A stretch of DNA of 23,428 nucleotides from a virus, in the IMG/VR virus record IMGVR_UViG_3300034061_004561, positions 1-23,428 of that record; one strand, 5' to 3'. The translations under genes were made by a program, and so were the position numbers. The notes beneath the pieces are model-generated. The model was not told where the DNA came from. It was given only the letters and a program-made list of their open reading frames with translations, and ran no database searches. This document shows, piece by piece, positions 1 to 20,300 of this stretch (position 1 is the stretch's first letter; each line of letters begins with the position of its first letter).

Positions 1-127
1 GATGATCCTTGACCGTCGTGACCACCATGAACTCGCTGAAGAACTCCCGGTTGTACGGAAGCGTCAGAGCGAGGATGTCGGCGTAGTCGACGCAGACGGT
101 GATGCCTCGGGGCTTGATTGCTGTCAT
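1..127 (-). CDS. Glycosyltransferase-like protein, N-terminal fragment (runs off left edge)
   Basis: Only the first 42 codons are in the window; the gene continues beyond base 1. The reading starts at an ATG (bases 125-127) that overlaps the TGA of the preceding methyltransferase gene in a 4-bp ATGA, so translation is probably coupled. The visible peptide opens with a short basic segment and then ITVCVDYADILALTLPYN, followed by FMVVTT. A beta strand, a YADIL-type turn and a second strand ending in VTT resemble the start of GT-A-fold nucleotide-sugar transferases (glycosyltransferase 2-like) found in phage genomes. No catalytic DxD is visible because the fragment is too short. The neighbours are glycosyltransferases and methyltransferases, which fits. 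The family call is resemblance plus context and could be wrong. Confidence 0.5.
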   Translation of the reverse strand, partial: MTAIKPRGITVCVDYADILALTLPYNREFFSEFMVVTTVKDH

Positions 128-660
128 AGTTCAATCCACCAGGACGGAACGTCCTCTTGAGTGACATGGAACTGCAGTGAGCGGTTCCTGCAGAATTCCA
201 GAACCGCATGGATCACTCCATGGTTTTCAATTGCGAAATCATGCCCAGCGATAATTCCGCCCTCAACGACCTTTGTTTCCCAGCGTTTCATGTCCTGAAT
301 GACAGACTCGTAGTCGTGCAATGCGTCGATGTAAACCAAGCCAACGCTGAAGTCATCGAGTAGCATTGCTGCTTCTTCGCTTCGCATTCGAAGAAACTTG
401 TGCCGATCCGGGAATGCCATCATCGCCATTCTTGCGATCTCGAAATCATCGTCTCGATTCGTTGTCTCCTGAACCATCGGGTAGAAGACATCACGGACTC
501 CGTCGTACCCCTCCCACGGATCGATCATCGTCAGTGTGCCGCGAAACCGCTCAAGAAACTCAACGGCAAACACTGCCTGATGAGTCCCGATCTCAACTGC
601 AGTCGTAAGTCCCTTTGCGTTGGCGATATCCGCTAATGCAGCACGACTTTTCAGAATCAT
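124..660 (-). CDS. Class I SAM-dependent methyltransferase (Methyltransf_24-like)
   Basis: A 178-aa protein with the layout of a Rossmann-fold methyltransferase. Motif I is AVEIGTHQAVFA at residues 21-32. An acidic residue after strand 2 (MIDPWE, D47) would bind the SAM ribose. VYIDALHDYESV at 109-120 and GGIIAGHDF at 134-142 match the Methyltransf_24 pattern of a strand-4 ID..H.Y motif and a downstream G.HD. This subfamily includes enzymes that methylate sugars and small molecules; the substrate here is unknown. The ATG (658-660) overlaps the stop of the upstream radical SAM gene in an ATGA, and its own stop overlaps the next start, so it sits inside a coupled operon. Its place in a glycosyltransferase cassette suggests sugar or glycan O-methylation, which is inference. 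Confidence 0.75.
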   Translation of the reverse strand: MILKSRAALADIANAKGLTTAVEIGTHQAVFAVEFLERFRGTLTMIDPWEGYDGVRDVFYPMVQETTNRDDDFEIARMAMMAFPDRHKFLRMRSEEAAMLLDDFSVGLVYIDALHDYESVIQDMKRWETKVVEGGIIAGHDFAIENHGVIHAVLEFCRNRSLQFHVTQEDVPSWWIEL

Positions 661-1577
661 GTCCCGAGATACTCCGTAACAATGCGTTTCGATTCCGGAA
701 CAATGTCGTCGACACTATCCACGATCTGGAATGTGCCGCCCGCTTTCAGCTTCAGGTGAGAATACTCTTCTGTCACCTGAGTCTTCTTGTCGGCCTGAGC
801 GAGTGCTCCATGCCCGTTCAGTGGGACTAAGCACCGATGACAGTGGAAGTCGACTTGGGCGCCGTATTCCGGCATTGCTTTCTTCCACCACCCTGATTCT
901 ATCCTCACGCCGGTATCAGGGTATTCAGGATTGTCCTGGTTCAACATCGCCTGCCCGCCGGCAATCTCGCAAAAGTATCCTCGCAATTCGCCACGAAACT
1001 GACAGATCATTGCCGACCAGTTTTGGTTTATCGCGCAGTTGCCTATGAGATCCCATCGCCGCGATTCATCAGGAACCAGTTTCTCCAGCGATCCATATAC
1101 CGGGGAGTGACGCGAGTCGTGATGAAGGCCGAACGGCTCTGACTCCGGCCAGTCGCGTTTGAATTCGTCGTAGGCTTCCTTGACAAGATGTACATTGAGA
1201 TTCGATACCTTTGGATTGAAAATCCTCCGCATCAGCTTTCCGTATCCTCGAGGATTGTTGCACCACAGCCCGCGACGATTCTTCGGGATGTGTTTTTCAA
1301 GGATCCGGCAAAGCTGTTCGAAGTTAGGAGCGAGCGCCGCGTTGCCTCCGAAGATTCCGACAACTCCGAAGTAATCCTTCAGGCTGACGACTGCCGCCTC
1401 GAAGTTCTCTTCGGTGATGAACGATGCTTTGCCACCAAACTGAGATCCCTGCGTGCAATTGGAACAGGCGAGATCGCAGGCGCGGGTTACGTGAATCTGG
1501 ATGATGCCTTTCAGCCAGGCAGTCTTCCGCTTCTGGACCGGGGCGACCATCTTTGCAAGTGCTTGTTCTCGGTTCAC
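657..1577 (-). CDS. Radical SAM enzyme with C-terminal SPASM-like cysteines
   Basis: A 306-aa protein read from a GTG at 1575-1577. This start is chosen because the GTG forms a GTGA overlap with the upstream stop and has GAGGT five to six bases before it. Residues 34-41 hold the CxxxCxxC cluster (CDLACSNC) that binds the [4Fe-4S] cluster generating the 5'-deoxyadenosyl radical. The SAM-binding GGE region appears as FGGNAALAP (76-84), with N in place of the usual E. C-terminal cysteines at 181, 192, 203, 246 and 249 resemble the auxiliary-cluster ligands of SPASM/twitch enzymes, which often modify peptides or sugars. The substrate is unknown. Radical SAM enzymes are uncommon inside phage tail operons. 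The family call is firm; the SPASM assignment is tentative. Confidence 0.8.
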   Translation of the reverse strand: MNREQALAKMVAPVQKRKTAWLKGIIQIHVTRACDLACSNCTQGSQFGGKASFITEENFEAAVVSLKDYFGVVGIFGGNAALAPNFEQLCRILEKHIPKNRRGLWCNNPRGYGKLMRRIFNPKVSNLNVHLVKEAYDEFKRDWPESEPFGLHHDSRHSPVYGSLEKLVPDESRRWDLIGNCAINQNWSAMICQFRGELRGYFCEIAGGQAMLNQDNPEYPDTGVRIESGWWKKAMPEYGAQVDFHCHRCLVPLNGHGALAQADKKTQVTEEYSHLKLKAGGTFQIVDSVDDIVPESKRIVTEYLGT

Positions 1578-2290
1578 AGCGACCTCACTGCATCGTAAAC
1601 GTAATCCCGATTGCTCCATACAGCGAATCGATCGGAGTCCGGATGCGTACCGCGAGGATAGAAGACTCGTGAAGGATTCTCCGCGATCTTCTTCATGTCG
1701 AATTTCTTGAAAGCCGCAGCGACGATCTCGTCGTTCAGGACGTGTGGTTCAGTGACTGTTGGTGCGTGGTAGTGGATGTCCATTCGGATTTCTCCGTCAG
1801 CATCGCAAACCGCTTCACAAACTTTGATTGCATTTACAAAACTGTCCACATGATCAATTGCGTTCACAGAAATGACAGCATCATAGCCATTCAACCCTAG
1901 TGATCCGTAATCTTCAATCCTGCATTCTACAGAGCCAGATACTCGCCTGTATCCGCATTCAGAATACCACGAATGCAATGGGTCCAGATAATGCACTTCC
2001 GCGCCAGCAAAGAACCGGCTGAGACCCAGCGGCCCAGATCCAACTTCTAGAACCTTTTTTCCAGAGAAGTATGTCGGCTCGACGTGCAGCCTTTTGCAGT
2101 ACCGCCACTTGTCAGCGTTGATCCACGTTTCTATGGCGTTTAGTTCTTCAGAGGAGAATCGCTGAATCTTCTCATGCTGCTTCGGACAAGGGATTCCGTA
2201 CAGTTCTTTGATTCTTCCATGAAACCACCGGACGTAGAATGAGATCTCATCCTTCCAGAACCGCTTCTCTTCATCGTACTTCGTCGTCAT
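1574..2290 (-). CDS. Class I SAM-dependent methyltransferase
   Basis: A 238-aa protein. Motif I is KVLEVGSGPLGLS (residues 79-91), the strand-2 acidic residue is in YLDPL (D103), and YDAVISVNAIDHVDSF (136-151) is the motif IV/post-motif region typical of Methyltransf_11-like enzymes. A roughly 75-residue aromatic and charged N-terminal extension (FWKDEISFYVRWFHGRI) precedes the fold and may bind substrate. I start it at the ATG at 2288-2290, which has GGGAG six bases upstream, rather than 14 codons earlier. It overlaps the end of the glycosyltransferase gene by 20 bp in another frame. Sugar or lipid-linked glycan methylation is plausible from context only. Confidence 0.75.
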   Translation of the reverse strand: MTTKYDEEKRFWKDEISFYVRWFHGRIKELYGIPCPKQHEKIQRFSSEELNAIETWINADKWRYCKRLHVEPTYFSGKKVLEVGSGPLGLSRFFAGAEVHYLDPLHSWYSECGYRRVSGSVECRIEDYGSLGLNGYDAVISVNAIDHVDSFVNAIKVCEAVCDADGEIRMDIHYHAPTVTEPHVLNDEIVAAAFKKFDMKKIAENPSRVFYPRGTHPDSDRFAVWSNRDYVYDAVRSL

Positions 2291-3761
2291 ACCAATCTCC
2301 CTTCCAAGATCGATCATTGACATGGTCCCCAATCTTCAAGCTGAATGGATGATTCGCAACTCTGAATTCGCCGTCAGACTTTGCGACATCCTTCCACTTC
2401 TCATAATCCTTCACGGTCCATGAGAAATGTTCATTCCCATAAGGCGACGAAACCGCATACGGATTCCACCCCATCGCAATCGGGTCAGCCTCGCTGATCT
2501 TCGCGTCTCGTAGTTTCTTTGCAAGTCGCAGGTCTTCTCCCAAAGAAACAGAATCGAACCCGCCTACACTCCAGAACGCCGAACGAGTTACTCCCCAAGT
2601 ACACTGGAACGCTTTATCAGCTTTGTCTTCGCGCCAGTACGTTTTGCATCGCGTCAAATCTCGAGATCCACGGACGAGTACCTGACTTGCCCTGCACCAG
2701 TCTGACCGGCTCAATGCATTCTCAACCGCAGACAAGGCATCCGGGAGGAAGATGTCGTCGTCATCCCAGAATACAAAGGCATCGACCGAATCACCGAACA
2801 TCTGAGCAATTGCGTTTCTTTTCTTTCCCAGAGAGGAATGAGGCTCGTTGATGCTTACGATTCTCCATCGATCGCCAGACGACTCTTGGATCTCCCCATG
2901 GTCGTCATACGCGATCAGGAGCCGGTCTTCGTAATTCTGACTTTCGAAGCAGGAGATCAAATGCCCAAGAAGTTTCGGCCTACGGAATGTCGGAACGCAA
3001 ACGCCGATCCTCATTTGATTCTGAGATGATCTGCTTTTGCTGAAGATCTTGTGAATCGTTAGCTTTGAGTCCTGCGATCGTTTCTTAAACGACGCATTCT
3101 CGTGACCTGCAGACCTCATTTCTCCAGCATACTTCCTCGTCATAAGAGAATGATTCAATCCAATAGCGACTGACTGATCCGGAGCCTTCCACGGAGAACT
3201 GCTAAAAAACCGCTGGACATCTGTGTCGATCTCTATTGGGAGGAATGTCGCCAAAGGCCAGTTGATCGTGTTTTCGCTGGAATCAACGGCAGGAGTCAGG
3301 CACCTCTCTCCAAGATCAGTCCATCCATGCTTTCCCTGCTCGAGCATCGCATTGATATTCGCAACCCACTTCTTCGCGACTTCGCTGCCTGGGCAACAGT
3401 AGATGTAACCAGCGATTACCCGTCGCGGCGGAGTCGACCACGTCATGAATCCGCATTCATACCCTGTGTCGAGTTCCTTTGGCGATCGCAGCATCAGCGT
3501 ATCTGCGTCAACGTAAAGCCCACCGTACTGCATCAACACTGCAGCGCGGACGCAATCGGACTTCACTCCGAGTTCTTTGATATCCTTCCATGACGGATGA
3601 AGGATACCGTCTGGGATGTACTTCTCGATATTCGCTGATGTGATGTGGTGGAACAAGCAGCCATCGAGACACTTTGATCGGATAGTGTCGAGGCAAAACT
3701 CAATGTAAGGCCAACGGCGAGCTTTTGGGGCATGCTCCCAATAGGTGAAAACATTGAGCAT
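2271..3761 (-). CDS. Two-domain glycosyltransferase (GT32-like plus GT2-like)
   Basis: A 496-aa fusion of two sugar transferases. Residues 1 to about 215 are GT32/Gly_transf_sug-like: a NVFTYWEH opening and the signature MQYGGLYVDADTLMLR (77-92), whose DxD (D85, D87) binds metal and nucleotide sugar. Residues 250 to 496 are GT2-like: MRIGVCVPTFRRP (250-262), a strand ending in AYDDHG, and FWDDDDIFLP (331-340) with the catalytic metal site; a later GED (SLGEDLRL) fits the GT2 acceptor-side acid. A Ser/Lys-rich linker at about 220-249 joins them. The internal ATG at residue 250 has no ribosome binding site, so this looks like one bifunctional polypeptide. GAGGA precedes the start. It probably adds two successive sugars to an unknown acceptor. 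Confidence 0.82.
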   Translation of the reverse strand: MLNVFTYWEHAPKARRWPYIEFCLDTIRSKCLDGCLFHHITSANIEKYIPDGILHPSWKDIKELGVKSDCVRAAVLMQYGGLYVDADTLMLRSPKELDTGYECGFMTWSTPPRRVIAGYIYCCPGSEVAKKWVANINAMLEQGKHGWTDLGERCLTPAVDSSENTINWPLATFLPIEIDTDVQRFFSSSPWKAPDQSVAIGLNHSLMTRKYAGEMRSAGHENASFKKRSQDSKLTIHKIFSKSRSSQNQMRIGVCVPTFRRPKLLGHLISCFESQNYEDRLLIAYDDHGEIQESSGDRWRIVSINEPHSSLGKKRNAIAQMFGDSVDAFVFWDDDDIFLPDALSAVENALSRSDWCRASQVLVRGSRDLTRCKTYWREDKADKAFQCTWGVTRSAFWSVGGFDSVSLGEDLRLAKKLRDAKISEADPIAMGWNPYAVSSPYGNEHFSWTVKDYEKWKDVAKSDGEFRVANHPFSLKIGDHVNDRSWKGDWYDDEVR

Positions 3762-3762
3762 C

Positions 3763-4497
3763 TCATTCCTCCGTAAACCGACCTCTCAGCCAATCTCGCA
3801 TGGTCGGCCTCCATACGTTGCTCTGATAATTCAGTACATTGGCATCAATCTCATTCAACTGGCGAATCATCAAAGGTCTCAGCAGTCTCTTGAGAAACTG
3901 CGGATACTGAACGCCTTGCCAATTGCCTCCGTAAGGTATCGGCGTACGATCCAATTGCCAATGGTTTTCGTACAGTATTTCGAACAGGTACAAGTTATTC
4001 GGAAACCCGTATTCGTCGAACATCTGCCGCAGCTTCTCTTTCTCGAACACATGCGGAAGATGAGTGCCGGCTTGAAAGTTTCCTCGACCATTCGCTGCTA
4101 GCGCGCCGAACGTCATCTTAATCAGTCGATGCCACTCTCGCTTCGAATTCGTCCGATACCACGGGTCGTACCGGAAGACCTTGAGATCCTCCAGCGACGT
4201 TGGTTTTAGGAAGAACTGGTCGTCCATCATCCAGACGAACTCTTCGTCAATTTCCGAATGAGACGCCGCATGCATGATCTTTGCCTGCGTGTCGCGGAAT
4301 GCCATTCGCCCTGGGAGTTCCCGCATTTTCGTCAGGCGATTCGCTGGGATGTAGTGCCCGTCGTACCACGATGGCTTTTCGCCGATCACAGTGAACTCCG
4401 GATTCCCGACGAAGTTCTTGCGAACTGATGCCATCGACAGGCGGAGTTCTTCACCGTTGTCAGGACCAACAATGTTCAGGTAGACAAACTGCGTCAT
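3763..4497 (-). CDS. Glycosyltransferase-like protein with WMMDDQFF motif
   Basis: A 244-aa protein beginning MTQFVYLNIVGPDNGEELR, with two basic-aromatic stretches and a central WMMDDQFFLKP (residues 89-99). The hydrophobic-DD-x-FF pattern resembles the DDxFF/DDxMF metal-binding site of Stealth-type and other capsular glycosyl- or sugar-phosphate transferases, so I read it as a GT-A-like transferase. It lies one base upstream of the double glycosyltransferase, whose ribosome binding site overlaps this stop codon. The tail gene cluster is 13 bp upstream, so the cassette is in one transcription unit with tail genes. The acceptor is unknown, and the Stealth versus GT question is open. Confidence 0.6.
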   Translation of the reverse strand: MTQFVYLNIVGPDNGEELRLSMASVRKNFVGNPEFTVIGEKPSWYDGHYIPANRLTKMRELPGRMAFRDTQAKIMHAASHSEIDEEFVWMMDDQFFLKPTSLEDLKVFRYDPWYRTNSKREWHRLIKMTFGALAANGRGNFQAGTHLPHVFEKEKLRQMFDEYGFPNNLYLFEILYENHWQLDRTPIPYGGNWQGVQYPQFLKRLLRPLMIRQLNEIDANVLNYQSNVWRPTMRDWLRGRFTEE

Positions 4498-4510
4498 AGA
4501 TTACGCCAAA

Positions 4511-4684
4511 CTATTTCAAAGCGACGGCATCAGCGATCGCAAGGATTTCGGCTTTCTCTTGGGACCATCTGTGCTCGTCAGCTTGTCTTTGGCGATCCTG
4601 TACCACGCTGCCCAGCGCAGAAACTGAACACAGCCCAACAAAGAGAATAAACAGCAGTGAGGTGATTGTCGCAGCCTCTTCCAT
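4511..4684 (-). CDS. Small single-span membrane protein
   Basis: A 57-aa protein starting at the ATG at 4682-4684, which shares its A with the TAA of the upstream gene (TAATG). Residues 6-28 form one hydrophobic span (ATITSLLFILFVGLCSVSAL within it). The C-terminal 29 residues are charged and helical (QDRQRQADEHRW...). Position after the tail-tip genes, together with one helix and a charged tail, would fit a small holin or spanin-like lysis component, but nothing specific identifies it and no endolysin is visible nearby. Earlier in-frame ATGs are rejected because they would lie inside the upstream gene and add a low-quality His-rich leader. Confidence 0.55.
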   Translation of the reverse strand: MEEAATITSLLFILFVGLCSVSALGSVVQDRQRQADEHRWSQEKAEILAIADAVALK

Positions 4685-5184
4685 TACCCGCACTCCACAG
4701 TTATTGTGATGGTGATGTTCCAGGGGAATATGACCAAGCCTCCCGATGTCTCGCATGCGTCATAGGCAACAAAAGAGAACTCTCCAGTCACCAGAGAACC
4801 CGCTGGCTCGTCGCCGCAGGATGGACAAATGAATGTGACTCCGGTGTCAGTCCATACCTGATTCGTTGCGTCGGACTTGTACTCGACCTTCCAGTTTGAA
4901 TTCGTCATGTCGCAGTACAGGCGAACAGAAAGGCTCAAGGCGACTAAGACACTGTAGGTATTATTCGCCGCACTAATCAGATCCACGCAGGAAAACCCTA
5001 TTTCCTGAAGGTAGTCTGATCCTTCCCCCGGAGGCTTTCCGCAATCTGTTCCGCCTTCGCCTGCAGTCGCAACAAGAATTCCTGTGACCGAAGAAATCAC
5101 TCTTCTCCAGCAGTCAGGACAGCAGGGGCAAGGGCAGTCGATGCATGTGCAGCATTCCAGCCACTTCTTCTTCATCATGCCCAT
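4684..5184 (-). CDS. Cysteine-rich tail-region protein of unknown function
   Basis: A 166-aa protein. The start is the ATG at 5182-5184, which overlaps the upstream TGA (TGATG) and has GGAG/GAGAG eight to nine bases before it. Residues 10-25 hold eight cysteines (ECCTCIDCPCPCCPDC), a density seen in metal-binding or heavily disulfide-bonded segments. The rest is predicted beta-rich: SVLVALSLSVRLYCD, WKVEYKS, an FICPSCGDEP knuckle with CPxCG, then GEFSFVAYDA and NITITITVECG, a pattern of strands like tail-tip or fibre modules. It sits between the Ser-linker tail protein and the membrane protein. I do not recognise a family. Confidence 0.55.
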   Translation of the reverse strand: MGMMKKKWLECCTCIDCPCPCCPDCWRRVISSVTGILVATAGEGGTDCGKPPGEGSDYLQEIGFSCVDLISAANNTYSVLVALSLSVRLYCDMTNSNWKVEYKSDATNQVWTDTGVTFICPSCGDEPAGSLVTGEFSFVAYDACETSGGLVIFPWNITITITVECG

Positions 5185-6227
5185 CAGACGCTCTCCGACG
5201 TTGGGCAAGGATTCTCTGATCCGGCGCAAGCCACCCCTTCCACGATGACTCGAGTGCAACTGATCTGCCTGAACTCCTTTGACCCATCAGGAAGTTCGCA
5301 GCACTCGTAATCCGGGAATGGCAAAGAAAGCAGAGGCTTTTCGGAATTCACAACGTCGTAGAGTTTGTTCGAAATTGGATCATCCGAAACACTCAATGAA
5401 CTGCTGGCAGATGCGCTGACCGAGGCACTCAATGAATCGCTGGCCGACTCTGGAGCCGCCCTCTTGATCATTTTTACGAGACTACCCTGCTTCAATGGAA
5501 TCGTTTCTGCCGTGTGAGCGTAGACGATCTGGCCAGTCCCGTTGCCAGCATTCCTTGTAACTTCGTAATCCTCGACCGATTCGCAGCTTGACTCCGCGCC
5601 GAAGTCTACGAACGCGCACATGTCGCAAGCATCGTATGGCTCATCCGATCCAGACGTGGACACCGAGGACGAAGCAGACTCCGACGCAGACCCAGGAATC
5701 GGTGGCTGCTCGTCCCAGTCGCTGAGTTCTACCTCGTACCAACCGTCGCCCAGGCATGTGCCGACGATCCCGTATTTCAGCTTGATCCCTGCACTCTGCA
5801 GAATCTCCCACCGCTTCGAGTCTTCGTTGTAAACGACGTAGAAGAACTCGCCTGCAACCTTCTGCACCTGATCGTTGAGCCCGCCGAGAACGTCGTATCC
5901 CCGGAACGGAGTCGACAAAGTGTCCTCGACGTGGATGCCTGATTTCTTATTGAGCCGGAACCACTGGCAAAGGCCCGACGGAACGTCGTCCAGGGCTTCT
6001 GCGAGGTCGGTCTTTGCGTCCTGAACTGCGAAGTCTTCAATTGCCACAGCGAGTCGCGTGAACGACTTCCGCATGTTGGCCGACTGGTTCCCCAGAGTCT
6101 CGTTGACCATCGACGAACCGTTGGTAAGGGCGATGTCCCGGCGCGAACGCAGAGACTCGGCCTGCTCGACATTAAGTCGATCGGCAGTCAGCGGGTCTCC
6201 CGGAATCCATTGTCGTGGTCGTGTCAT
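5184..6227 (-). CDS. Tail-region structural protein with two Ser-rich linkers
   Basis: A 347-aa protein. The opening TRPRQWIPGDPLTADRLN (residues 2-19) is the kind of start seen in phage tail-fibre or tail-tip-associated proteins. Residues 20-80 look helical. Two low-complexity linkers, at 178-194 (GSASESASSSVSTSGSD) and 259-282 (rich in SAS/SVS), separate three small folded parts; the middle and last parts contain Cys pairs (CDMC, ECC). The C-terminus ends PTSESV. The linker DNA contains a 22-bp direct repeat at 5390-5411 and 5426-5447 (about 36-bp period), so the linker has probably grown by duplication. The start overlaps the upstream stop in ATGA. Function beyond virion structure is not known. 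Confidence 0.6.
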   Translation of the reverse strand: MTRPRQWIPGDPLTADRLNVEQAESLRSRRDIALTNGSSMVNETLGNQSANMRKSFTRLAVAIEDFAVQDAKTDLAEALDDVPSGLCQWFRLNKKSGIHVEDTLSTPFRGYDVLGGLNDQVQKVAGEFFYVVYNEDSKRWEILQSAGIKLKYGIVGTCLGDGWYEVELSDWDEQPPIPGSASESASSSVSTSGSDEPYDACDMCAFVDFGAESSCESVEDYEVTRNAGNGTGQIVYAHTAETIPLKQGSLVKMIKRAAPESASDSLSASVSASASSSLSVSDDPISNKLYDVVNSEKPLLSLPFPDYECCELPDGSKEFRQISCTRVIVEGVACAGSENPCPTSESV

Positions 6228-7423
6228 AGGACTGGGTAGAAGATGTCAGAGAATGATTTCAGTTCGAACAACGGCTCGCCTGTCGCTTCGACAACAACTC
6301 GCATCCAGTCACCAGTGCCGTCTTCCGGGCCTTCGCGATCCAGAAACAGGTGATTCCATCCGTAGGCTTCGTCGTTGTCGTCCGGACATTCGTCGCTGTC
6401 AGAATACGAAGCTGATGTCGGCTTTTCAATTCGCTTCTGTTTGAAGATCAACTTCAGCGTTGTCGTATTCATATTATTCGTCGGATCGCCAGCATTCAAG
6501 AAGTTTCCGCCGAAAGCGTCCGTCCTCTTCGATCTGTCTTCCTGAAAATCGATAAACATGATTGTCTCTGGCTCGTACTGCCCGCAACCGCATGCAGTCG
6601 GATCAACAGGGGCCGCGTCACATTGCATGACATCTCCCCATGGCTGATCGTTTACCGATCCTCGAAAACCTCTCAGGTGATTCTCGATCGCACAGAGATT
6701 CCTCACAGGGACGTTATGCCAGTGAACGATAATGTCGGCCTTTGGGATGATCTTGTAAGCGTAAGAGTCAGGCTTCAACTGCCGCTCTGCAGAGCCAGCG
6801 GGAAGATCCTCCCATGACAATCCACCGTTCGGGAGCGTGAACATCTCATACGATGGATTCCGCTCAGCGCTGATGCATGTCCCCGGAAGAATATACTCGT
6901 TAACTACCCATTGACGGTATGTCTGACTCAGTACGTTCTGATCGTACCCGCAACAGTCGCACGGATTTTCTTCGTATGTCAGTGTCACGACGCATTCGCA
7001 GCAATCGTTGACTGAAGTGTCAAACGGATCTTCTGGATCGTCCTCTGCTGGAGTCGGAGTGAAGTATAGAGCCATCGTGTCGATGTCTGCAGGGTCTGAA
7101 ATAATCTCTCGACCTTCTCCAAGATTATTCCCGAAGCAGGCGGCAGAGAAAGGCTCAATTGAAAACCCCGATGCCACCAAATTCATGCGACCATATTTTC
7201 TCGCCTGACCGTCCGATCCGTCGAACGGAAACGGAACCGGAAGCACAGGACTCGGCGCAGCAGCAGTCCAGAACTTCCCCATCTGCCGAAGCGCGAACTC
7301 CTCGGCATGCTCGCATGACATCTTGAACTTCAGCGATGATGATGCCTTACCAGACTGGTAATTCAGGAATCCAGACGGATCAACTGCGATGACATCAAAA
7401 TCGTAATCGTTGTACATGCTCAT
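6224..7423 (-). CDS. Minor tail protein immediately after the tape measure (distal-tail position)
   Basis: A 399-aa protein encoded directly downstream of the tape measure gene with an ATGA overlap, the position normally held by distal tail or baseplate hub proteins. The N-terminus (MSMYNDYDFDVIAVDPSG) and long beta-rich body fit a virion protein but no signature confirms a Dit or Tal family. Residues around 140-160 carry a dense cysteine group (CCECVVTLTYEENPCDCCG) and further on CGCGQYEPE, suggesting metal or disulfide stabilisation. A short SASYSDSD segment near the C-terminus echoes the Ser-rich linkers of neighbouring tail proteins. Confidence 0.55.
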   Translation of the reverse strand: MSMYNDYDFDVIAVDPSGFLNYQSGKASSSLKFKMSCEHAEEFALRQMGKFWTAAAPSPVLPVPFPFDGSDGQARKYGRMNLVASGFSIEPFSAACFGNNLGEGREIISDPADIDTMALYFTPTPAEDDPEDPFDTSVNDCCECVVTLTYEENPCDCCGYDQNVLSQTYRQWVVNEYILPGTCISAERNPSYEMFTLPNGGLSWEDLPAGSAERQLKPDSYAYKIIPKADIIVHWHNVPVRNLCAIENHLRGFRGSVNDQPWGDVMQCDAAPVDPTACGCGQYEPETIMFIDFQEDRSKRTDAFGGNFLNAGDPTNNMNTTTLKLIFKQKRIEKPTSASYSDSDECPDDNDEAYGWNHLFLDREGPEDGTGDWMRVVVEATGEPLFELKSFSDIFYPVL

Positions 7424-10287
7424 TGTGCCACCGCTCCCACATTCAATTTCTTGACGGCTTCCGTCGTTTGCCCCTGCGCGCCGACAACTGGCACGACGAA
7501 TTCTCTCATCGCCTCACGGAAAGCCATATTCAATGCCCCAGAAATCGCATTCGCAGTCGCATCCGGCATCGCCTGTGTGTTGAAATTCTCTGGCCGGATC
7601 TGCGACATGGATTCCAGTGCAAACCCAAGAGCGTTGAAATTCCCGAATCCACCCAGAGGAGTCGCACGCAGTGCCTGCTCCGGGGATCCGCCCAGTCTCA
7701 TATTCGCGTTTAGTTCGGAAATCGCCGCCGTTAGTGTGGCTAGTTCCTGAGTGTTCTTGTCAAGCGGATCAAAAGAAAGTGCGTTCTTCTGGAGACCCTG
7801 AACGTACTGCTCAAAATTCGTGATCGACGACTTCCCAGATCCCTTTGCAATCTCGTCACGAACTTCTTTCTGACGTAGGAGAAGTTCTGTCTCTGTCTCA
7901 ATTCGCAGTGCCTCGCGAGCGGCATCAGCCTCCCTGTTTACCAGATCTCGAAGATCTTGTGTTGGAGCCAACGCCAGCTTCGCCTCGCGGATCTTCTCAA
8001 TGAGCGTCTGGAATTCCTGCGCAGACTTCTGAACCTCCATAGTAAACAATGTCTGATCGTTTGCAGTTCCGGCAATCGTTCTACGAATCACTTCCTGAAT
8101 GTCAGTGAACTCTTCGATCTTCTTCTGCGCTGATGTCAACCCATCAGTCAACTGGTTAGTGAATGATTCGATCTCCTGAGCCGCCTGCGACAATTCAGTG
8201 ATTACGTCCTGGACTGATGAAAGAGTCGATGCAAATGTTTTCGACGCTTCCTCATCGGCAAGGTCCATGTCCTTAAATGTTTTCTCGACAGTTTCTTTGA
8301 GTTCCTGAAAAAGTCTTACCGTGAGTTTTAACTGGCTCGCGTCAGAGTTTCCTGTAAGTCCGTTTTCTCTGGCAATACGAAGGTTGTTGTATAGCCCGGA
8401 TACATTATCGACCTGCCCTTCGAGATCCCTCAATAACGCGATGTCTTTCTTTAACTGCTCGTCTGCTTTTTCCGAATTCAAAGGACCAGTAGCACGGTCA
8501 TTACCAGGAAACTTCGAAGTAATGTCGACGATTTCTTTCAGGGCATTCCTTCTGTCTCTGAATAGTTTTTCACCTTCTCGAAGCTGATTCAGGTTTCGTG
8601 AAAGCGATTCGCCTTCATCCAATCCCTCGAACAACTTCTTCAGGTCGTCGGATTTATCTGCGGAGTTTTCAGCAACTTCACCTAACTTCTGCAGTACGTC
8701 ACGAAGCTCCTTTGCCTTTTCAATTGATCGGGCAAAGTCTCTCTCGCCACCAAGAAGCCCAACACTAAATTTCACGTCAGAAAACTCTCGACTCACCAGA
8801 TCGGAAATGTCCGTGAATCTGGTTTCGATATCATTCAGGCTCTCAAGCCATTCGACAATTTTCGGAACAACAATGATTGCTAACGCTGATCCTATGCCTG
8901 CGACAAGCGGCAGCGCAGTAGAAAACTTTTCTGCCATCTTCGCCGCTTGATCTGCCGGGATGTTCCCCTTCAGTGCGATAAACTGCTTTGTGAGAGCCTC
9001 GGTGAACACCTTGCTCTGAGACAGACTGTTCAGAAGGAACGCGACGTTATTCGCAGCGCCGCGAATACCACCAGCGATTCCATTCAAACTGTATCCGACC
9101 GCGAAGTCTTCGAATGCCTGCCCAAGCTGATAGGCATTGTTGCTCAGCGTGTTCATCGACACTGCCGCTGTCTGTGCGTCCTCGTATAGCAGTTTTAGTC
9201 CAAGCTGAGCGTTAGCCAACTCCTGCACCGCGACCTTCAACCTGTCGACGCTATCCTGCTGCCCGTCGTATGCCTGAGAGAGTCGCCTGACGTTAAGTTC
9301 AGCCAACTCGAGAGCTGCCTGTTGCTTCGCAATATTCTGACGTTGTTCGCCAGACGGCAACCCCTGCACCAGAGAGGCCTGCAGTTTATTTTCAATACGC
9401 GACTTCGAAATCATTTCCTTCGCATTATCTGCGATGTAATCGAACTGCTCCTTCAACGCAGCTTGATCAGCCTTGACCTGCAGATCCACAACAATCTTCG
9501 CTTCGGCCTTAATGCGAAGTGAGTCGATGTCGTCTGTGATTCGCTGAATGCGTTCTCTGGCTTCAGTTACGTCGATCAGGTTCTCGGCGCGCAGTCCCTG
9601 CGATAGTCTTAACTTCGCTGAGTCGAGCAGATCGTTGAGTACCTGAAATTGACGAATCATGCCGCTGTCGCCAGATGCATTGATCGTCTTTCCAACTCCT
9701 TTCACTCCCAGCAGGGACGATTCAACAGCATCTCTCTGCTCGCGGAATCCCTGACTGCGGTCGAACGCCGACGCCACAAGACCGGCAGCGCGAAGTTGCT
9801 CATCAGTGTTCTGACGTAAAACGGCAAGTTCCTGCGTCCGAAGATCGATGATCCTCTGGATTGCTGCAGCCTGCTCGTTCTCATCATCGGTCGTGCGGAA
9901 GATCCCTGCCTCCCCCGCGACAGCGGAAGTCAGATTCTTCAGTCGCAATTGCAGGTCTTTGTCGTTCGCAATACGAACGTCGACTTCAAGGAATGCCTTG
10001 TCTCGCTGGAACTCGAGGATTGCCTGGCGAAGCTGATTCCGAAGGTCATTGGCTGCTTGGTTGGCCGGATTTCCGCCGCCGCCAGAAGACCCCCCACCTC
10101 CGCCTCCCGATCCCCCGCCACTAACATTCGGAGGACCGATCCTTGGAGATGGGATGGACGCTGTGGAGAAGATGCGAGCGTACTCTGCAATTGCCTCATT
10201 CGCTGACGTGCGGATGATGTCCTGAAAGTTCGGATCTGGACGGATGTTGACAAACACGTCCAGCAGTGATTCGTCGCCGTCAGCCAC
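7420..10287 (-). CDS. Tail tape measure protein
   Basis: A 955-aa protein, the longest in the window, read from a GTG at 10285-10287 with AGGAG nine bases upstream. It overlaps the end of the frameshifted chaperone reading (stop at 10280), the classic arrangement of chaperone G/T genes followed by the tape measure. It is mostly long amphipathic helix with heptad-like Leu/Ile and many charged residues, as tape measures are. A Gly/Ser-rich spacer lies at about residues 57-72. A hydrophobic stretch at about 452-475 (VAGIGSALAIIVVPKI) fits the membrane-inserting segment common in siphovirus tape measures. At roughly 0.15 nm per residue, the known scaling for such proteins, the tail would be about 140 nm long. 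That length is an estimate. Confidence 0.85.
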   Translation of the reverse strand: MADGDESLLDVFVNIRPDPNFQDIIRTSANEAIAEYARIFSTASIPSPRIGPPNVSGGGSGGGGGGSSGGGGNPANQAANDLRNQLRQAILEFQRDKAFLEVDVRIANDKDLQLRLKNLTSAVAGEAGIFRTTDDENEQAAAIQRIIDLRTQELAVLRQNTDEQLRAAGLVASAFDRSQGFREQRDAVESSLLGVKGVGKTINASGDSGMIRQFQVLNDLLDSAKLRLSQGLRAENLIDVTEARERIQRITDDIDSLRIKAEAKIVVDLQVKADQAALKEQFDYIADNAKEMISKSRIENKLQASLVQGLPSGEQRQNIAKQQAALELAELNVRRLSQAYDGQQDSVDRLKVAVQELANAQLGLKLLYEDAQTAAVSMNTLSNNAYQLGQAFEDFAVGYSLNGIAGGIRGAANNVAFLLNSLSQSKVFTEALTKQFIALKGNIPADQAAKMAEKFSTALPLVAGIGSALAIIVVPKIVEWLESLNDIETRFTDISDLVSREFSDVKFSVGLLGGERDFARSIEKAKELRDVLQKLGEVAENSADKSDDLKKLFEGLDEGESLSRNLNQLREGEKLFRDRRNALKEIVDITSKFPGNDRATGPLNSEKADEQLKKDIALLRDLEGQVDNVSGLYNNLRIARENGLTGNSDASQLKLTVRLFQELKETVEKTFKDMDLADEEASKTFASTLSSVQDVITELSQAAQEIESFTNQLTDGLTSAQKKIEEFTDIQEVIRRTIAGTANDQTLFTMEVQKSAQEFQTLIEKIREAKLALAPTQDLRDLVNREADAAREALRIETETELLLRQKEVRDEIAKGSGKSSITNFEQYVQGLQKNALSFDPLDKNTQELATLTAAISELNANMRLGGSPEQALRATPLGGFGNFNALGFALESMSQIRPENFNTQAMPDATANAISGALNMAFREAMREFVVPVVGAQGQTTEAVKKLNVGAVAQ

Positions 10288-10926
10288 CGATCGTCGCTCC
10301 TAACGCAAGATAAGCCTCAACCAATGACAGACTCATTGCCTCCCGGAGTCCGATCCCGGAGTTCTTTGTCACTGCGAGCGCCAGCATCTTATACCGATTT
10401 CCGTCAACCACATCCACCGGAGCTTTCTTCTCTACGGTGATGGTTGTGGATTTTGTGGCCCCAGCGTCTGGCTTTGTTCGCTCGGGCCATTTGAGTTTCC
10501 CAGCGTGTTCGACTCATCCGTCGCAAACAACGCCAGCTTTAACTGGGCCTGTTCTTCCGGAGTCGCACGGTCCCAGAGATCCTTGATTCGCTGGATCCCT
10601 TCCTCCCACGTCTCTTCACGGAACCCTTTCGCAGTCTTAATCTTCCGCTTGTTGCATCGCCAAACGTCGAAGAAAAAGCCTTCCAGCGATCGGTCGTACT
10701 GCAATTCTTCCTCGATCGAAACCGCTGAAGAATTGCAGTACACCTGCTTCATCGCTATCCCGACGAGAATTTTGTAATTCTCCTCGGTCATTTCCTTGGG
10801 GAAGCCGGAGATCAGATTCCACGGTTTGTCGCGACGAGACTTGATGTGCTCGAGCTTCTCAACGTAGTTCAATAATCTCTTCGGCCTCACCTCAATCGTT
10901 GTTCCGCCAAGAACGACTGAGATCAT
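10280..10926 (-). CDS. Tail assembly chaperone, -1 frameshift product (G-T fusion)
   Basis: If ribosomes slip back one base on GGGAAAC (10495-10501), residues 1-144 of the chaperone continue into a second open frame of 71 codons ending at TGA 10280-10282, giving about 215 aa. The extension begins LKWPERTKPDAGATK and includes NRYKMLALAVTKNSG and LREAMSLSLVEAYLALG, a helical segment with real coding character, unlike the low-complexity zero-frame tail. This -1 frame is closed just upstream (TGA within the GATGAG at codons 137-138), so the shift must happen downstream of that; the heptamer lies there. There is no ribosome binding site for an independent start of the extension. This matches the lambda G/GT arrangement, where the T part recruits the tape measure. 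Confidence 0.72.
10432..10926 (-). CDS. Tail assembly chaperone, zero-frame product (G-like)
   Basis: A 164-aa protein between the major tail protein and the tape measure, where siphoviruses encode the tail assembly chaperone that holds the tape measure during tube assembly. It starts at ATG 10924-10926 with GGAG six bases upstream. Residues 1-130 are folded and charged; residues after 140 (TLGNSNGPSEQSQTLG) are a Ser/Gln/Pro tail that looks unstructured, as expected where most ribosomes read on after a slippery site. A GGGAAAC heptamer at codons 143-144 would shift a fraction of ribosomes into a longer product. The family call rests on gene order and the frameshift signal, not on a motif. 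Confidence 0.75.
   Translation of the reverse strand: MISVVLGGTTIEVRPKRLLNYVEKLEHIKSRRDKPWNLISGFPKEMTEENYKILVGIAMKQVYCNSSAVSIEEELQYDRSLEGFFFDVWRCNKRKIKTAKGFREETWEEGIQRIKDLWDRATPEEQAQLKLALFATDESNTLGNSNGPSEQSQTLGPQNPQPSP
10457..10501 (-). promoter_or_regulatory. Programmed -1 ribosomal frameshift signal
   Basis: Read on the minus strand, the signal is the slippery heptamer G GGA AAC (10501-10495) in the chaperone zero frame. A 6-nt spacer (TCAAAT) follows, then a stem-loop with arms GGCCCGAGCG (10488-10479) and CGCTGGGGCC (10466-10457). The arms pair in 9 of 10 positions with one G-G mismatch around a 12-nt loop. XXXYYYZ heptamers with a hairpin 5 to 9 nt downstream are the established -1 frameshift architecture; lambda uses GGGAAAG in the same gene position. 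Confidence 0.78.
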
Positions 10927-10940
10927 GCCTCACTCCTCAA

Positions 10941-11405
10941 TTACTGGTTTTCTTCACCCTGTGTCGTTGGCTCATGCAGCCACTCGTCCACTTCGAATCC
11001 GTAGTTGTAAATGACCGGAGAGTTGCCGGCGATGTCGAAGTCGACCGGAACCGAAGTGATGCGAATGTTCGCTTCGTAGTACGGATCCGTCGGCGACTCC
11101 AGAATGTTGTCGCAGTTGACCGACCACATGATGTGGTAAATGCCATTGATCGCAAACGGAGCCGGAGCCGTTCCGTCGTGGCAGGCGATTGCCAGATTGC
11201 CAGTGTTCGAGACCGTTCCGCAGGCAGTCTTTTCGTTGCCGTTGGTCGATGACGTGACAAGCTTCTTGACAGCCGATGTCTTCGTGAACGCGATTCGCGT
11301 TACGTGCGGGATCGTGTCCCAGGACGCCGCGCTTTCATTTGTGTTCGTATCCAGCAACACGCAGGCTTCCGATGGGCAGCACAGTTCACCAGCAGAAAAT
11401 GGCAT
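10941..11405 (-). CDS. Major tail (tube) protein
   Basis: A 154-aa protein encoded just upstream of the tail chaperone, the conserved slot for the tail tube subunit. GGAG lies seven bases before the ATG. Residues are strand-forming throughout (HVTRIAFTKTSAVKKLVTSS, GNLAIACHDG, VDFDIAGNSPVIYNYGFEV), consistent with the beta-barrel tail tube fold, and the size fits small siphovirus tube proteins. Several cysteines (CCPSEAC near the N-terminus, later single ones) follow the Cys-rich habit of this virion. Assignment is by position, size and composition. Confidence 0.65.
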   Translation of the reverse strand: MPFSAGELCCPSEACVLLDTNTNESAASWDTIPHVTRIAFTKTSAVKKLVTSSTNGNEKTACGTVSNTGNLAIACHDGTAPAPFAINGIYHIMWSVNCDNILESPTDPYYEANIRITSVPVDFDIAGNSPVIYNYGFEVDEWLHEPTTQGEENQ

Positions 11406-11417
11406 TTCAACTCTCCA

Positions 11418-11852
11418 TCAAACAGATTCAGACGCGGATACGGAATCTGAAGACTCCGACTGCTTGTACGTCCCACGAAAAACAAGACTATAAACGATCA
11501 CGCCACCAGTGCCACTCCGAATCGACGAAGTTGCGTTGCCACGCTGGCAAAAACATCCACAGCTTCCAAGATCAACACACCCCGCCGCAAACAACCAGTC
11601 CTCGACGAGACTCCGGTATTCCTGGGCCTTCTTCTGCATCGTATCAGAAAAGTAGGCCTTGATGTCCACCGTGTGACTCTTCTGAACTGAGGACGATGTC
11701 CGCAGCCCAGACTGGGTATCGATCTTGACCACGACATACGGAAGACAGTCCGAACATCGCTTCTCATTCAGGAAGTGATTCTCGCTCTTGATGGTCGTGC
11801 AGTTCAAACCCCGGAGGGTTTCAAGAACTGCGTCTTCGATGCAACATGACAT
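11418..11852 (-). CDS. Probable tail terminator or tail completion protein
   Basis: A 144-aa protein located immediately upstream of the major tail protein, where the tail terminator is usual. AAGGA precedes the ATG by six bases. The fold outline (N-terminal helix CIEDAVLETLRGL, then strands PYVVVKIDT and HTVDIKAYFSD, helix AQEYRSLVEDWLFAAG, and a final strand VIVYSLVFRGTYK) is compatible with tail terminator proteins. Extra features are a CGCFC cluster and a C-terminal SSDSVSASESV tail that mirrors the Ser linkers of other virion proteins. It overlaps the 53-aa gene upstream by 32 bp. The function is inferred from position. Confidence 0.5.
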   Translation of the reverse strand: MSCCIEDAVLETLRGLNCTTIKSENHFLNEKRCSDCLPYVVVKIDTQSGLRTSSSVQKSHTVDIKAYFSDTMQKKAQEYRSLVEDWLFAAGCVDLGSCGCFCQRGNATSSIRSGTGGVIVYSLVFRGTYKQSESSDSVSASESV

Positions 11853-11982
11853 CTGACTTCCTTACGACAACCAAATTCTCAAGTGCCACTCCATGATCTC
11901 GGATCACGACGGCTTCAGCGATCTCCGGACTCAAGGCTTCCACCTCAATTGGAGATCCTGCGCCGTAAACAATGTACTTCAT
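11821..11982 (-). CDS. Small hypothetical protein (53 aa)
   Basis: A short gene recovered from the junction between two longer ones. Its ATG (11980-11982) overlaps the TGA of the upstream gene as ATGA, with GGAA about eight bases before it. The product begins MKYIVYGAGSPIEVEALSPE and continues with AEAVVIRDHGVALENLVVV, a plausible small alpha-beta fold. It fills the otherwise empty 126-bp gap between its neighbours and uses the coupling typical of this operon, which supports it being real. The last ten or so codons overlap the next gene. Position suggests a small head-tail joining or tail-completion component; no family is recognised. Confidence 0.55.
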   Translation of the reverse strand: MKYIVYGAGSPIEVEALSPEIAEAVVIRDHGVALENLVVVRKSDVMLHRRRSS

Positions 11983-13394: not shown

Positions 13395-13405
13395 CGCAGA
13401 CCTCC

Positions 13406-13669: not shown

Positions 13670-13697
13670 TCTACACCTTCCTTCAGGAACTGGAAAC

Positions 13698-13732: not shown

Positions 13733-13757
13733 CGATGCGTCATCTGCTCACCGCAGA

Positions 13758-14978
13758 CTATGTTGATTCGCTGGAATCGCCGGTCAACCAAACAGCCTTC
13801 TGTGGCTCCTTGATGTAGGCGTATCCCTTGCTGATGCTGTCGTACTGAGCCACGATTCGACGACGCTGAGATTCTTCGCTCAGGTTCAGTCGCGTGACCG
13901 TTGGCCGGATCTGGAAGACCCACGCCATGAACTCAGGAATCTTGCCGAAGAAGATCCACTCGCGAGCCTGAGTCAGCGTCAAACTGTATCGGGCCGCAAT
14001 AGCCGAAGTCAGTCGCTGATATTCGACAGGAGCGAAAGTCATCCCGTTGGCGACTTCCGGAGTCATGAAGAAGTGTGTCAGGTCGCCTGATCCCGGACAG
14101 GTCGATTCTCGCTCAACGCTGGTTGCGTTAAGCAGTGGCAGAATCCGGTCCCGAGTTCGCTGACTCGTGAACACGTTCAGATTCGTCACGTCGACCGACA
14201 TCGGACGACCGTGAACCAAGTCCGTCATGTCGTAGAACAGATTCTTGACAGTCTGCAGGTCTTCGCCGCAGGTCAAAGTCAGTGAAGCTGCATTGATCCA
14301 AGGTCCACCGGAACCGTCGTCGAACGGAGTGCCTGTCGCGCCATCTTCGTAGAAGATGTCGTACAGAGTTCCGCTGCGGTCGTAAGTCACGTTGTAGCCG
14401 ATCAGAGCGTCGACCAACTTTTCTTCGCGGTACAGGTTATGAGCGTCAGCGATCTTTGGAACCTGCTGCAACGCAAATCCGTTCGGATCTTTGCAGAGTG
14501 CTTCGCGAGTGAACGCCAAGCCGAGCCCAACAGTCTTGCCGTTTGGATGTTCCAGATAATCACTGGCAACACCGTACAACGGGCTGGCTTCAAGTTCGCA
14601 CAACTCGTGGGCCTTCATGTCGCTGAAGACACCCCAGTCCTTGAAGGACTCTTCGCACTCACCACGAGTCTCGACAGGAGTGATCGCGGAGAGCTTGTAC
14701 TCTTCACGAGGGTTTTCCTGCAGCGAGTAGCGGATGGTTCGCTGAACCATCTTGTTGAACGTGCCGCTGGTCACGATGGCTTCCATCGCATCAGCATCCA
14801 TGTTCAGGATCTTTTCTTTGAAGTTCGGCCCGAAGTCCTGCTCAACGCAGAAATTCAAGTCGATATCAAAAGGCTTGATCTGCTTGGACTCGAGAGCTTC
14901 ATCGAATTCTTCGAAGACCTGCTCGCCGTGCTTTTTGTAAGCGTCAACAACCTTTTTCGTGAGTTGGCGATTCGCCAT
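13758..14978 (-). CDS. Major capsid protein
   Basis: A 406-aa protein in the canonical capsid slot, after protease/scaffold and a decoration candidate and before the connectors. Start ATG 14976-14978 has AAGGA seven bases upstream. The N-terminal 60 residues are charged and helical (VVDAYKKHGEQVFEEFDEALES), like the delta domain of HK97-fold capsids. The body alternates strands and helices (VGLGLAFTREALC, DALIGYNVTYDRSGTLYDIF, MSVDVTNLNVFTSQRTRDRILPLL). The C-terminus has a conserved-looking YDSISKGYAYIKEPQKAVWL. The strong terminator directly after the gene is typical for highly expressed capsid genes. No cleavage site can be placed with certainty. Confidence 0.75.
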   Translation of the reverse strand: MANRQLTKKVVDAYKKHGEQVFEEFDEALESKQIKPFDIDLNFCVEQDFGPNFKEKILNMDADAMEAIVTSGTFNKMVQRTIRYSLQENPREEYKLSAITPVETRGECEESFKDWGVFSDMKAHELCELEASPLYGVASDYLEHPNGKTVGLGLAFTREALCKDPNGFALQQVPKIADAHNLYREEKLVDALIGYNVTYDRSGTLYDIFYEDGATGTPFDDGSGGPWINAASLTLTCGEDLQTVKNLFYDMTDLVHGRPMSVDVTNLNVFTSQRTRDRILPLLNATSVERESTCPGSGDLTHFFMTPEVANGMTFAPVEYQRLTSAIAARYSLTLTQAREWIFFGKIPEFMAWVFQIRPTVTRLNLSEESQRRRIVAQYDSISKGYAYIKEPQKAVWLTGDSSEST

Positions 14979-15017
14979 TTTACTGTCCTTGTCTGAACCT
15001 CGGAATCACCACACAAA

Positions 15018-15551: not shown

Positions 15552-15592
15552 GTCTCGCCCTTTTCAAACAAACGAACCGAAACGGTCAGTGA

Positions 15593-18866: not shown

Positions 18867-20300
18867 TCACTTCTCCTTCCTCAGATTCTCCCAGTATTCC
18901 ATCTCATATCGCGGCAACTGAGTACACATCGCCAATGCGTCCGGCCCGTCGTCGTGTTTCCCGACGCCCGGGATGCCGTCGAACTGCTTAATCTGCTGCA
19001 GCAAAAGCGTCGTTCCCGGATTCTCCAAGAACCGGAACTCTCGCTGCGTCAGCCGTTTGTCCAGACCTCTCCGGATCCTCATTTCCTTCTTCAGCATGTC
19101 CTCGACTGGAATGATAATGTTCCCGGACATCAAATATTTCGACAGCGCATACTCCTGATGAGTCGCCGCGTAGTTCATGATCAAGTCGCGGAAAATACTC
19201 TGAAACTGCGTCGATTCAATCCCAATCAAGTCGCCTGATCTGATCCTGTGGTGATCCTGCTCGCAGAACAGGAACAAGTCCTCAATGATCTCCGACGGCG
19301 ATCGTCGTTTTAAGTCCGCATCGACATACGCCAGTTCTGATGTTTGTGCCATGCAAACCAAGGCACTGTAGTCGCCTTTCTTTACTGATTTCCCTTTACT
19401 TGGATCTACACAAAACATCCGCACAACATCGTTGGCGTGTTTCGGGATGGGAAACTTTTCCAGCGGGATGTAGACGTTAACAAACAAGTCTCTGTGCCAT
19501 TCAGATCCCGTCTGCGATGATCCGAGCCATGAACCCTCTAGAAATCGCTGACGGTCCTGTTCAGACATCTGCTCCAGTCGTTGCCTGTATCCGGGGTCCG
19601 ACTTCTGGAGATGCTCGTTATCCTTCAACGTCGCGCCGATGAATGTGGCCGACGTTGTGACGCATTCCTCTTCGCCGGTCGTCTCATTGATCTCATACTG
19701 CGGACTGTCGTACCAAATGAACTCTGGCTCGACGTATCTGAAGTAGCGAATGACTCCTGATCTCTCTGGAATCGGGAACCCAGTTTCAGGGTCGATCCAC
19801 CAGTACAAAAATCGATAAAGCCACGACATTGAATCTGGATTACAAGACAATCTCAGGCGGGGTTTTACTCCAGATTTACTACGACAGCGACCCCACAAAT
19901 ATTGCACGAATTGCAGGGGCCACTGAGTCGCTTCGTCGACTGCCAAATAGTCGATCTGGCTCCCCTGATAATCGTCGAGGTTCTTTTGAAACTGGCATGT
20001 CCCGAGAGCGATCTTCGCACCGCACGGAAAAGTGAACTCAGCGCGAGTGTGATTGTATGTCGCTCCGTATGGCGAATACATAGACTTGCAGTGGTCGAGC
20101 AGAGCCCCAGGCTGACTCAACTGCGGGAATGTGCGGCGAACGATCAACCCCCTGAAATCCGGGTTCGAATGCGGTCCCTGAGTATGCCTCAGAAAGTCCA
20201 GCGTCAGGATATGAGTTTTGCCGCATCCGGCCCCTGAACCGAAACACAACCACTCTGCTTCGGATGTCAAGAATCGATACTGAGGATCTGAGAGTTTCAT
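18867..20300 (-). CDS. Terminase large subunit (packaging ATPase-nuclease)
   Basis: A 477-aa two-domain packaging motor. ATPase domain: Walker A GSGAGCGKT (21-29), Walker B IDYLAVDEA (116-124) with the catalytic Glu123, and the coupling motif SCNPD (152-156). Nuclease (RNase H-like) domain: FCVDPSKG (296-303, Asp299), LIGIEST (358-364, Glu362) and KHDDGPDALA (448-457, Asp450/451/454), which coordinate the metal that cuts concatemeric DNA. Length is typical for TerL. The ATG overlaps the HNH gene stop in ATGA. No obvious small terminase is next to it; the small helix-turn-helix gene further upstream is a possible but unproven TerS. Confidence 0.93.
   Translation of the reverse strand: MKLSDPQYRFLTSEAEWLCFGSGAGCGKTHILTLDFLRHTQGPHSNPDFRGLIVRRTFPQLSQPGALLDHCKSMYSPYGATYNHTRAEFTFPCGAKIALGTCQFQKNLDDYQGSQIDYLAVDEATQWPLQFVQYLWGRCRSKSGVKPRLRLSCNPDSMSWLYRFLYWWIDPETGFPIPERSGVIRYFRYVEPEFIWYDSPQYEINETTGEEECVTTSATFIGATLKDNEHLQKSDPGYRQRLEQMSEQDRQRFLEGSWLGSSQTGSEWHRDLFVNVYIPLEKFPIPKHANDVVRMFCVDPSKGKSVKKGDYSALVCMAQTSELAYVDADLKRRSPSEIIEDLFLFCEQDHHRIRSGDLIGIESTQFQSIFRDLIMNYAATHQEYALSKYLMSGNIIIPVEDMLKKEMRIRRGLDKRLTQREFRFLENPGTTLLLQQIKQFDGIPGVGKHDDGPDALAMCTQLPRYEMEYWENLRKEK

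Follow-up and report, generated by a model that had tools for sequence, protein, structure and literature searches.

A glycosyltransferase, methyltransferase and radical SAM gene cassette with an exchangeable centre behind the tail genes of related phages

A cassette of six genes (G1 to G6), encoding glycosyltransferase-like proteins, methyltransferases and a twitch-type radical SAM protein, follows the tail genes in a virus record of 23,428 bases. This record, probably a fragment, is the whole stretch of DNA that was analysed and is referred to here as the window. The gene set, the constraint upon it, the predicted fold of the radical SAM protein G4, the linkage of its gene with the glycosyltransferase gene G6 and the exchange of the cassette centre among near-identical phages are all direct observations. 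There is, in our judgement, an even chance that the cassette is a modular island that glycosylates virion proteins, has an interchangeable centre and lies among the late genes concerned with host interaction.

A six-gene cassette in the tail region

The main genes of the window all lie on the minus strand, running from terminase through portal, probable capsid, probable tape-measure and tail-region proteins to G1-G6 (Table 1). That the cassette belongs to the tail region is indicated by the gene for the 955-residue probable tape-measure protein. G1 to G5 are complete, and G6 is truncated by the contig end. Open reading frames were called with a simple greedy script, and many of the records used for comparison are fragments. 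The earlier note had described a six-gene set with tight spacing, and this description holds: orf81 and G1 are 13 bp apart, G1 and G2 are separated by a 1-bp gap, and the remaining genes overlap (G2/G3; G3/G4 by GTGA; G4/G5 and G5/G6 by ATGA). Only two start codons needed refinement. G4 probably starts with GTG at 1577, and G3 probably with ATG at 2290, as its relative in L015 aligns from this position, making a TTG start at 2332 less likely.

From this layout, the cassette would be transcribed together with the tail genes. Where the tail genes give way to the cassette, promoter and terminator scans gave no signal above chance. A hairpin of 11 pairs with T-rich bases behind it, resembling a terminator, is present at 4777-4801 (minus strand), inside orf191 upstream of the cassette, where it could attenuate cassette transcription; the number of such hits is at chance level. 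At the other end of the window, a short repeat encoding the peptide EGRLPAGPD occurs in at least five tandem copies (22946-23428), runs off the right contig end and is possibly an assembly-end or repeat artefact. An HNH-like protein, recognised by eye and with an apparently duplicated domain, is encoded at 20297-21187, between the terminase and a group of small genes.

Table 1. Features of the window discussed in the text (all on the minus strand).
Feature	Coordinates	Strand	Assignment	Basis or remark
Terminase large subunit	18867..20300	-	terminase large subunit	phrog_979, E 3.7e-84
Capsid gene	13758..14978	-	probable major capsid protein	assigned by position; no PHROG match
Tape-measure gene	7420..10287	-	probable tape-measure protein, 955 aa	by size and position; no convincing PHROG match
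orf399	6224..7423	-	hypervariable tail-region protein upstream of the cassette	55-78% identity in capsid-matched phages
orf347	5184..6227	-	tail-region protein, candidate glycan acceptor	serine-rich tracts at 5646-5690 and 5385-5447; no PHROG match
G1	3763..4497	-	putative glycosyltransferase with DD motif, 244 aa	phrog_7999 (function unknown), E 1.7e-9, weak; no Pfam family
G2	2271..3761	-	double glycosyltransferase, GT32-like and GT2-like domains, 496 aa	Pfam and motifs
G3	1574..2290	-	SAM-dependent methyltransferase, 238 aa	motif I VLEVGSGPLG at 2024-2053
G4	657..1577	-	twitch-type radical SAM protein, 306 aa	GTG start; CX3CX2C at 1455-1478
G5	124..660	-	methyltransferase, 178 aa	Methyltransf_24, 54 bits against cut-off of 26, Pfam 2.9e-14
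G6 (partial)	1..127	-	GT-A fold glycosyltransferase with DAD motif	ATG at 127; 42 aa in window, cut by contig end

Near relatives keep every gene of the cassette, and comparison with the window indicates purifying selection on G1 to G5, with dN/dS values of 0.03-0.10. For G6, a value of 0.055 was obtained between two relatives. Thus, taken together with the linkage between G4 and G6 described below, the six-gene set is not a product of chance.

The assignments of the individual proteins differ in strength. A profile of G1 found no match in the PDB; the gene forms the conserved upstream edge of the cassette, with 89-98% identity across cassettes with three different centres and a dN/dS of about 0.1. 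In G2, the N-terminal domain matches Caps_synth (8e-7) and Gly_transf_sug (2e-6), both over the cut-off, and has a DxD motif at 3498-3518, while the C-terminal GT2-like domain carries DDDD at 2754-2777 and matches Glycos_transf_2 at 5e-4, which is under the cut-off. An ORF in L013 with a 27% match to G2 was left out of the evidence. G3 scores 19.3 bits against Methyltransf_11, just below the Pfam cut-off of 21.2. For G5, a PHROG family match to DNA methyltransferases was rejected as an assignment, since it spans only part of that profile. G6 is complete in L002 and L004, where it encodes a glycosyltransferase of 247 residues. A model of this protein (m0116bea90728, pLDDT 91.6) has the K4 chondroitin polymerase K4CP, SunS and other GT-A enzymes as its nearest PDB structures; these Rossmann-like fold matches, together with a metal-binding DxD (D91/D93) that is invariant in 23 sequences, place it among the GT-A enzymes. 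The transferases and methyltransferases identified by Pfam, motifs and the fold of G6 agree with the earlier proposal that the set is able to build and methylate a glycan.

G4 and its largely viral family

G4 matches the radical SAM family PF04055 at 27 bits, just below the cut-off of 29.5, and its relative in L040 scores above it. Membership of the superfamily is indicated by the cysteines C34, C38 and C41, invariant in 41 sequences, and by partial TIM-barrel fold matches. An AlphaFold model made from 41 family sequences (pLDDT 95.2, pTM 0.92) finds its best PDB fold match (Foldseek E 6e-8, Z 17.4, 256 residues, 3.5 A) in SpeY, an entry whose title names a twitch radical SAM dehydrogenase. 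SpeY acts on a sugar of spectinomycin. The second fold match is BtrN (Z 12.5), with subsequent matches at Z of about 10, and BtrN is also the best sequence match of the G4 profile in the PDB (E 0.0018). BtrN oxidises an aminocyclitol and has an auxiliary cluster with four cysteines (PMC9012708). Four further cysteines are likewise found in G4 (at 1017-1040, 966-974 and 831-842), of which C181, C246 and C249 are invariant and C203 nearly invariant among the 41 sequences. The twitch assignment draws on these residues and on the alignment of the model to SpeY over residues 15-306, the cluster itself being invisible in the model.

As identity to SpeY and BtrN is only 13-14%, the reaction of G4 can only be inferred; judging from the predicted structure, it is somewhat more likely than not to act on a sugar hydroxyl. 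Cys106, directly after a barrel strand, is invariant in clade A of the family but is not conserved across both clades, being replaced by Thr in a clade B protein (L097). In HygY, a single cysteine is reported to separate epimerase from dehydrogenase activity, according to a title cited in PMC10991966, and it is a guess that Cys106 plays a HygY-like epimerase role. Epimerases of the NeoN/HygY type are characterised by an additional cysteine in the active site that donates a hydrogen.

The G4 family comprises two clades, A and B, with about 34% identity between them. Relatives were found in 17 viral stretches in a first scan and in 102 in a later one, 80 of which were kept, against three cellular assemblies in genome_contigs (L099, L100 and L101), all of which fall among the viral clade A sequences in the tree. 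The earlier note had considered that these genes might sit in host polysaccharide loci next to which phage genes had merely been inserted. Since the family is almost wholly viral, this is not borne out. L099 is a phage-like contig with matches to tail-protein PHROGs, and in L100 the relative lies near a contig end beside a transposase. In L101, a Chromatiaceae assembly, the homologue is found inside a flagellin glycosylation island (3996-16000), together with two flagellins, an MptE-like/Maf-like protein, a GT2 and a Methyltransf_24 protein; this radical SAM gene was possibly acquired from a phage. No further members were found at E 1e-20 in samples of 274 genomes from the class of the Chromatiaceae assembly and 392 from the phylum of the Schlesneria assembly, and a search of 50,697 cultured-phage records found nothing related to G2, to G6 or to G4 of either clade. 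A search for the terminase large subunit in 392 Planctomycetota genomes at E 1e-50 found none and, having had no working control, supports no inference about the host.

A phage-encoded radical SAM step in glycan or peptide modification had been described beforehand as unusual. This needs qualification, as radical SAM genes are in themselves nothing out of the ordinary in phages (PMC7029224). The unusual feature is that twitch proteins with a carbohydrate-dehydrogenase-like fold form a virus-specific family and are kept with transferases.

Linkage with G6 and exchange of the cassette centre

Counting the window, 36 viral loci belong to clade A, and in 34 of them the radical SAM gene is followed by G6 on its own strand, mostly within 1.5 kb; these 34 loci are not independent events, as they are related and partly near-identical. 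In the two exceptions, the contig ends 400 bases past the gene (L006) or the radical SAM protein forms one ORF with a methyltransferase (L040). Fusion ORFs, each seen in a single contig, join the radical SAM protein to a G6-like GT2 (L042), to Methyltransf_24 (L040) or to a GT47 (L097); the first of these was exposed when single-linkage clustering merged the radical SAM proteins with the G6 proteins.

An extension of the cassette to the left, which the earlier note had called for, is provided by the relatives, which complete G6 and then carry two more transferase-like genes. Upstream of G1, L004-L007 have a cytidylyltransferase, two further transferase-like genes and a large ORF that contains a Rhamno_transf domain and weakly matches a methyltransferase. 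Other viral cassettes add LicD, cytidylyltransferases, FkbM methyltransferases, an NAD-dependent epimerase and a sulfotransferase-like protein. Genes of clade B adjoin a GT2 and an NAD-dependent epimerase, with terminase and portal-like genes next to them in most loci. In some cassettes the twitch enzyme is accompanied by a second, different radical SAM protein with a CDCSCFGCDR-type motif, encoded at L043:9622-10434, L044:6511-7323, L049:2974-3729 and L018:15104-15817. At L015:8684-10004 and L016:6933-7607, CMP-sugar synthetase-like genes, joined in L015 by one for an MptE-like protein, are present beside the twitch radical SAM gene, which suggests acidic-sugar donors in some phages.

The probable capsid protein was used as the yardstick of phage relatedness, and phages in which it is 91-100% identical were compared. 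The contigs of this set carry three different cassette centres: the two ends, G1 on one side and the genes from G6 on at the other, are retained, and the region between them is exchanged. In the window and in L002-L007, the centre consists of G2, G3, the twitch radical SAM gene and G5. L107/L154, L115 and L116 instead have genes for a methyltransferase, for a SPASM-type radical SAM protein (in L115 the domain was confirmed with Pfam) and for a GT2, while in L149 an extra transferase-like gene and a methyltransferase are followed by the same SPASM protein and GT2. G2 is therefore among the genes replaced in the alternative alleles. The SPASM-type protein of these alleles also has BtrN as its best PDB match (E 5e-5). 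Thus, with alternative centres at the same place, the radical SAM slot is kept and is filled by two distinct types of enzyme. The pairing of the twitch enzyme with G6 is not obligatory, as the alternative alleles keep G6 without it.

Divergence is also seen within a single type of centre. The twitch protein of L113 is only 60-62% identical, with G2 and G6 at 95-96%. Between G3 and this diverged gene lies an ORF of 206 residues (L113:15943-16563), HNH-type-like by eye and with no Pfam match. G5 is 50-92% identical in contigs whose G4 stays at about 95%, as in L003-L007 (G5 50%, G4 94-95%). In the capsid-matched contigs, the head genes mostly show dS values of 0.05-0.9 (capsid 0.04-0.56), whereas the identity of tail-region proteins is 33-83% overall, with 33-71% for the tape-measure protein and 55-78% for orf399. 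Since the head genes are conserved and the tape-measure gene, orf399 and orf347 have diverged, the cassette adjoins the most variable, and probably host-interacting, part of the late genes.

Possible targets of the glycan and known systems

In the mechanism we propose, the transferases at the edges of the cassette (G1; G6 and the two transferase-like genes that follow it) would start and extend a glycan, whilst the exchangeable centre, here G2, G3, G5 and G4, would set its identity. G3 and G5 may cap or mark sugars with O-methyl groups. G4 would use SAM to generate a 5'-deoxyadenosyl radical, which would take a hydrogen from the carbinol carbon of a sugar; either an electron would then pass to the four-cysteine auxiliary cluster, resulting in oxidation to a keto sugar, or a hydrogen would be returned from the other face, resulting in epimerisation. 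The most likely place for the finished glycan would be the serine-rich tracts in virion proteins of the tail region, for instance orf347. A change of centre would alter the surface chemistry of otherwise near-identical phages.

By its position, orf347 would be a virion protein. It contains a run of 21 residues with Ser (or Thr) at every second position, which was reached by none of 2000 shuffles of the proteins of the window, and its orthologues in L004-L007 and L107 have long poly-Ser/(SSSA)n stretches. S/T-rich tracts, which are suggestive of an acceptor role, precede the radical SAM gene in just eight of 38 clade A loci, four of them from near-identical phages, and follow it in none of the 38; their scarcity counts against a virion target. 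Nevertheless, the serine-rich tail-region proteins and the homologue in a flagellin island tilt the balance towards protein glycosylation, and we place the prospects of a virion target at about evens. Other observations weigh against glycosylation of virion proteins by the cassette, namely that G1 belongs to no recognised family, that the Pfam score of G3 falls short, and that G6 is retained where the twitch enzyme is absent.

The earlier note had favoured virion decoration or late remodelling of host glycans over an early function. The genes do lie in the late or tail region of related phages and not in a host polysaccharide locus, but sequence alone does not decide between virion and host surface. 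Late remodelling of a host surface glycan such as O-antigen, capsule or S-layer sugars, which would leave the virion unmodified and might block superinfection or the adsorption of progeny to debris, is possible but on balance doubtful. Phage transferases have often been interpreted in this way, including those in the host-recognition clusters of pelagimyophages, where they occur with radical SAM genes and where modification of the host O-chain has been proposed by the authors (PMC7029224). In addition, G2 resembles transferases of capsule synthesis, and the nucleotidyltransferase and LicD genes of related cassettes fit envelope polymers. Glycosylation of virion proteins accounts at least equally well for the late position among tail genes, the co-variation with tape-measure and distal-tail genes, the serine-rich proteins and the flagellin-island homologue; moreover, no membrane anchor, flippase or polymerase genes were noticed in the cassettes in a non-systematic look.

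That G4 instead modifies a virion or cassette peptide, by RiPP-like or protein-maturation chemistry, with the transferases glycosylating that peptide, we consider improbable. SPASM/twitch enzymes often act on peptides, the peptide enzymes anSME and SuiB match the G4 model with Z 9.6-10.3, and the radical SAM protein is found fused to or beside methyltransferases, all of which favours this reading; the low identity to SpeY and BtrN weighs against a role on sugars. Yet the structures that match best, those of SpeY and BtrN, are of carbohydrate dehydrogenases and score well above the peptide enzymes, and a non-exhaustive look recognised no short precursor-like ORF next to the radical SAM gene. 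That the transferases and the radical SAM enzyme take part in hypermodifying the phage DNA is a very remote prospect. Phage glycosyltransferases can modify DNA, and proteins of the thymidylate synthase family are encoded in four of 32 viral records of the G4 family; the other 28, including a close relative of 55.7 kb, have no such gene, although the records may be fragments. A Tet/JBP search, run with no working control, found none in the 32 records, and the content of the cassette varies along with the tail region. Returning to the glycosylation of virion proteins, we suggest tentatively that virus-specific twitch radical SAM sugar oxidases or epimerases tailor the glycans of the particle, with exchange of whole centres, two distinct radical SAM types among them, acting as a serotype-like switch of virion surface chemistry.

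Few phages are known to glycosylate their virions, and those that do use simple sets of enzymes. If correct, serotype-like cassette exchange coupled to radical sugar chemistry would make the evolution of phage surfaces much like that of bacterial O-antigens, and biochemistry would gain access to a family of carbohydrate-active radical SAM enzymes confined to viruses.

Flagellin glycosylation islands likewise have variable sets of transferases beside the protein to be glycosylated, and one of them (L101) contains a G4 homologue. Serine-rich repeat glycoprotein loci similarly carry variable transferase sets beside the acceptor protein. Both are cellular systems, whereas the acceptor in the phages is only proposed. 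G4 itself resembles SpeY, BtrN and the related epimerases HygY and NeoN in its CX3CX2C motif, its near-full-length fold match (to SpeY and BtrN) and its four further cysteines for one auxiliary cluster (PMC9012708); unlike these enzymes, which belong to antibiotic pathways, it is viral and is encoded with phage transferases and methyltransferases. The host-recognition cluster of pelagimyophages is, by description and not by gene families, a comparable hypervariable tail region with cassettes of transferases and radical SAM genes (PMC7029224). In Corndog and other cluster O mycobacteriophages, an O-methyltransferase (gp35) and glycosyltransferases (gp36-38) are encoded inside the virion structural operon (PMC4351075); proteins of the capsid and the tail tube are reported to be modified by these enzymes (PMC11600133, citing Freeman 2023). 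The cassette of the window and its relatives resembles this arrangement in following tail genes, with its transferases in what would, if co-transcribed as the layout suggests, be the virion operon. It differs in that the Corndog genes lie between the portal and protease genes, and neither a radical SAM enzyme nor exchange of a central block is mentioned in the passages cited. The cluster O mycobacteriophages are the nearest precedent.
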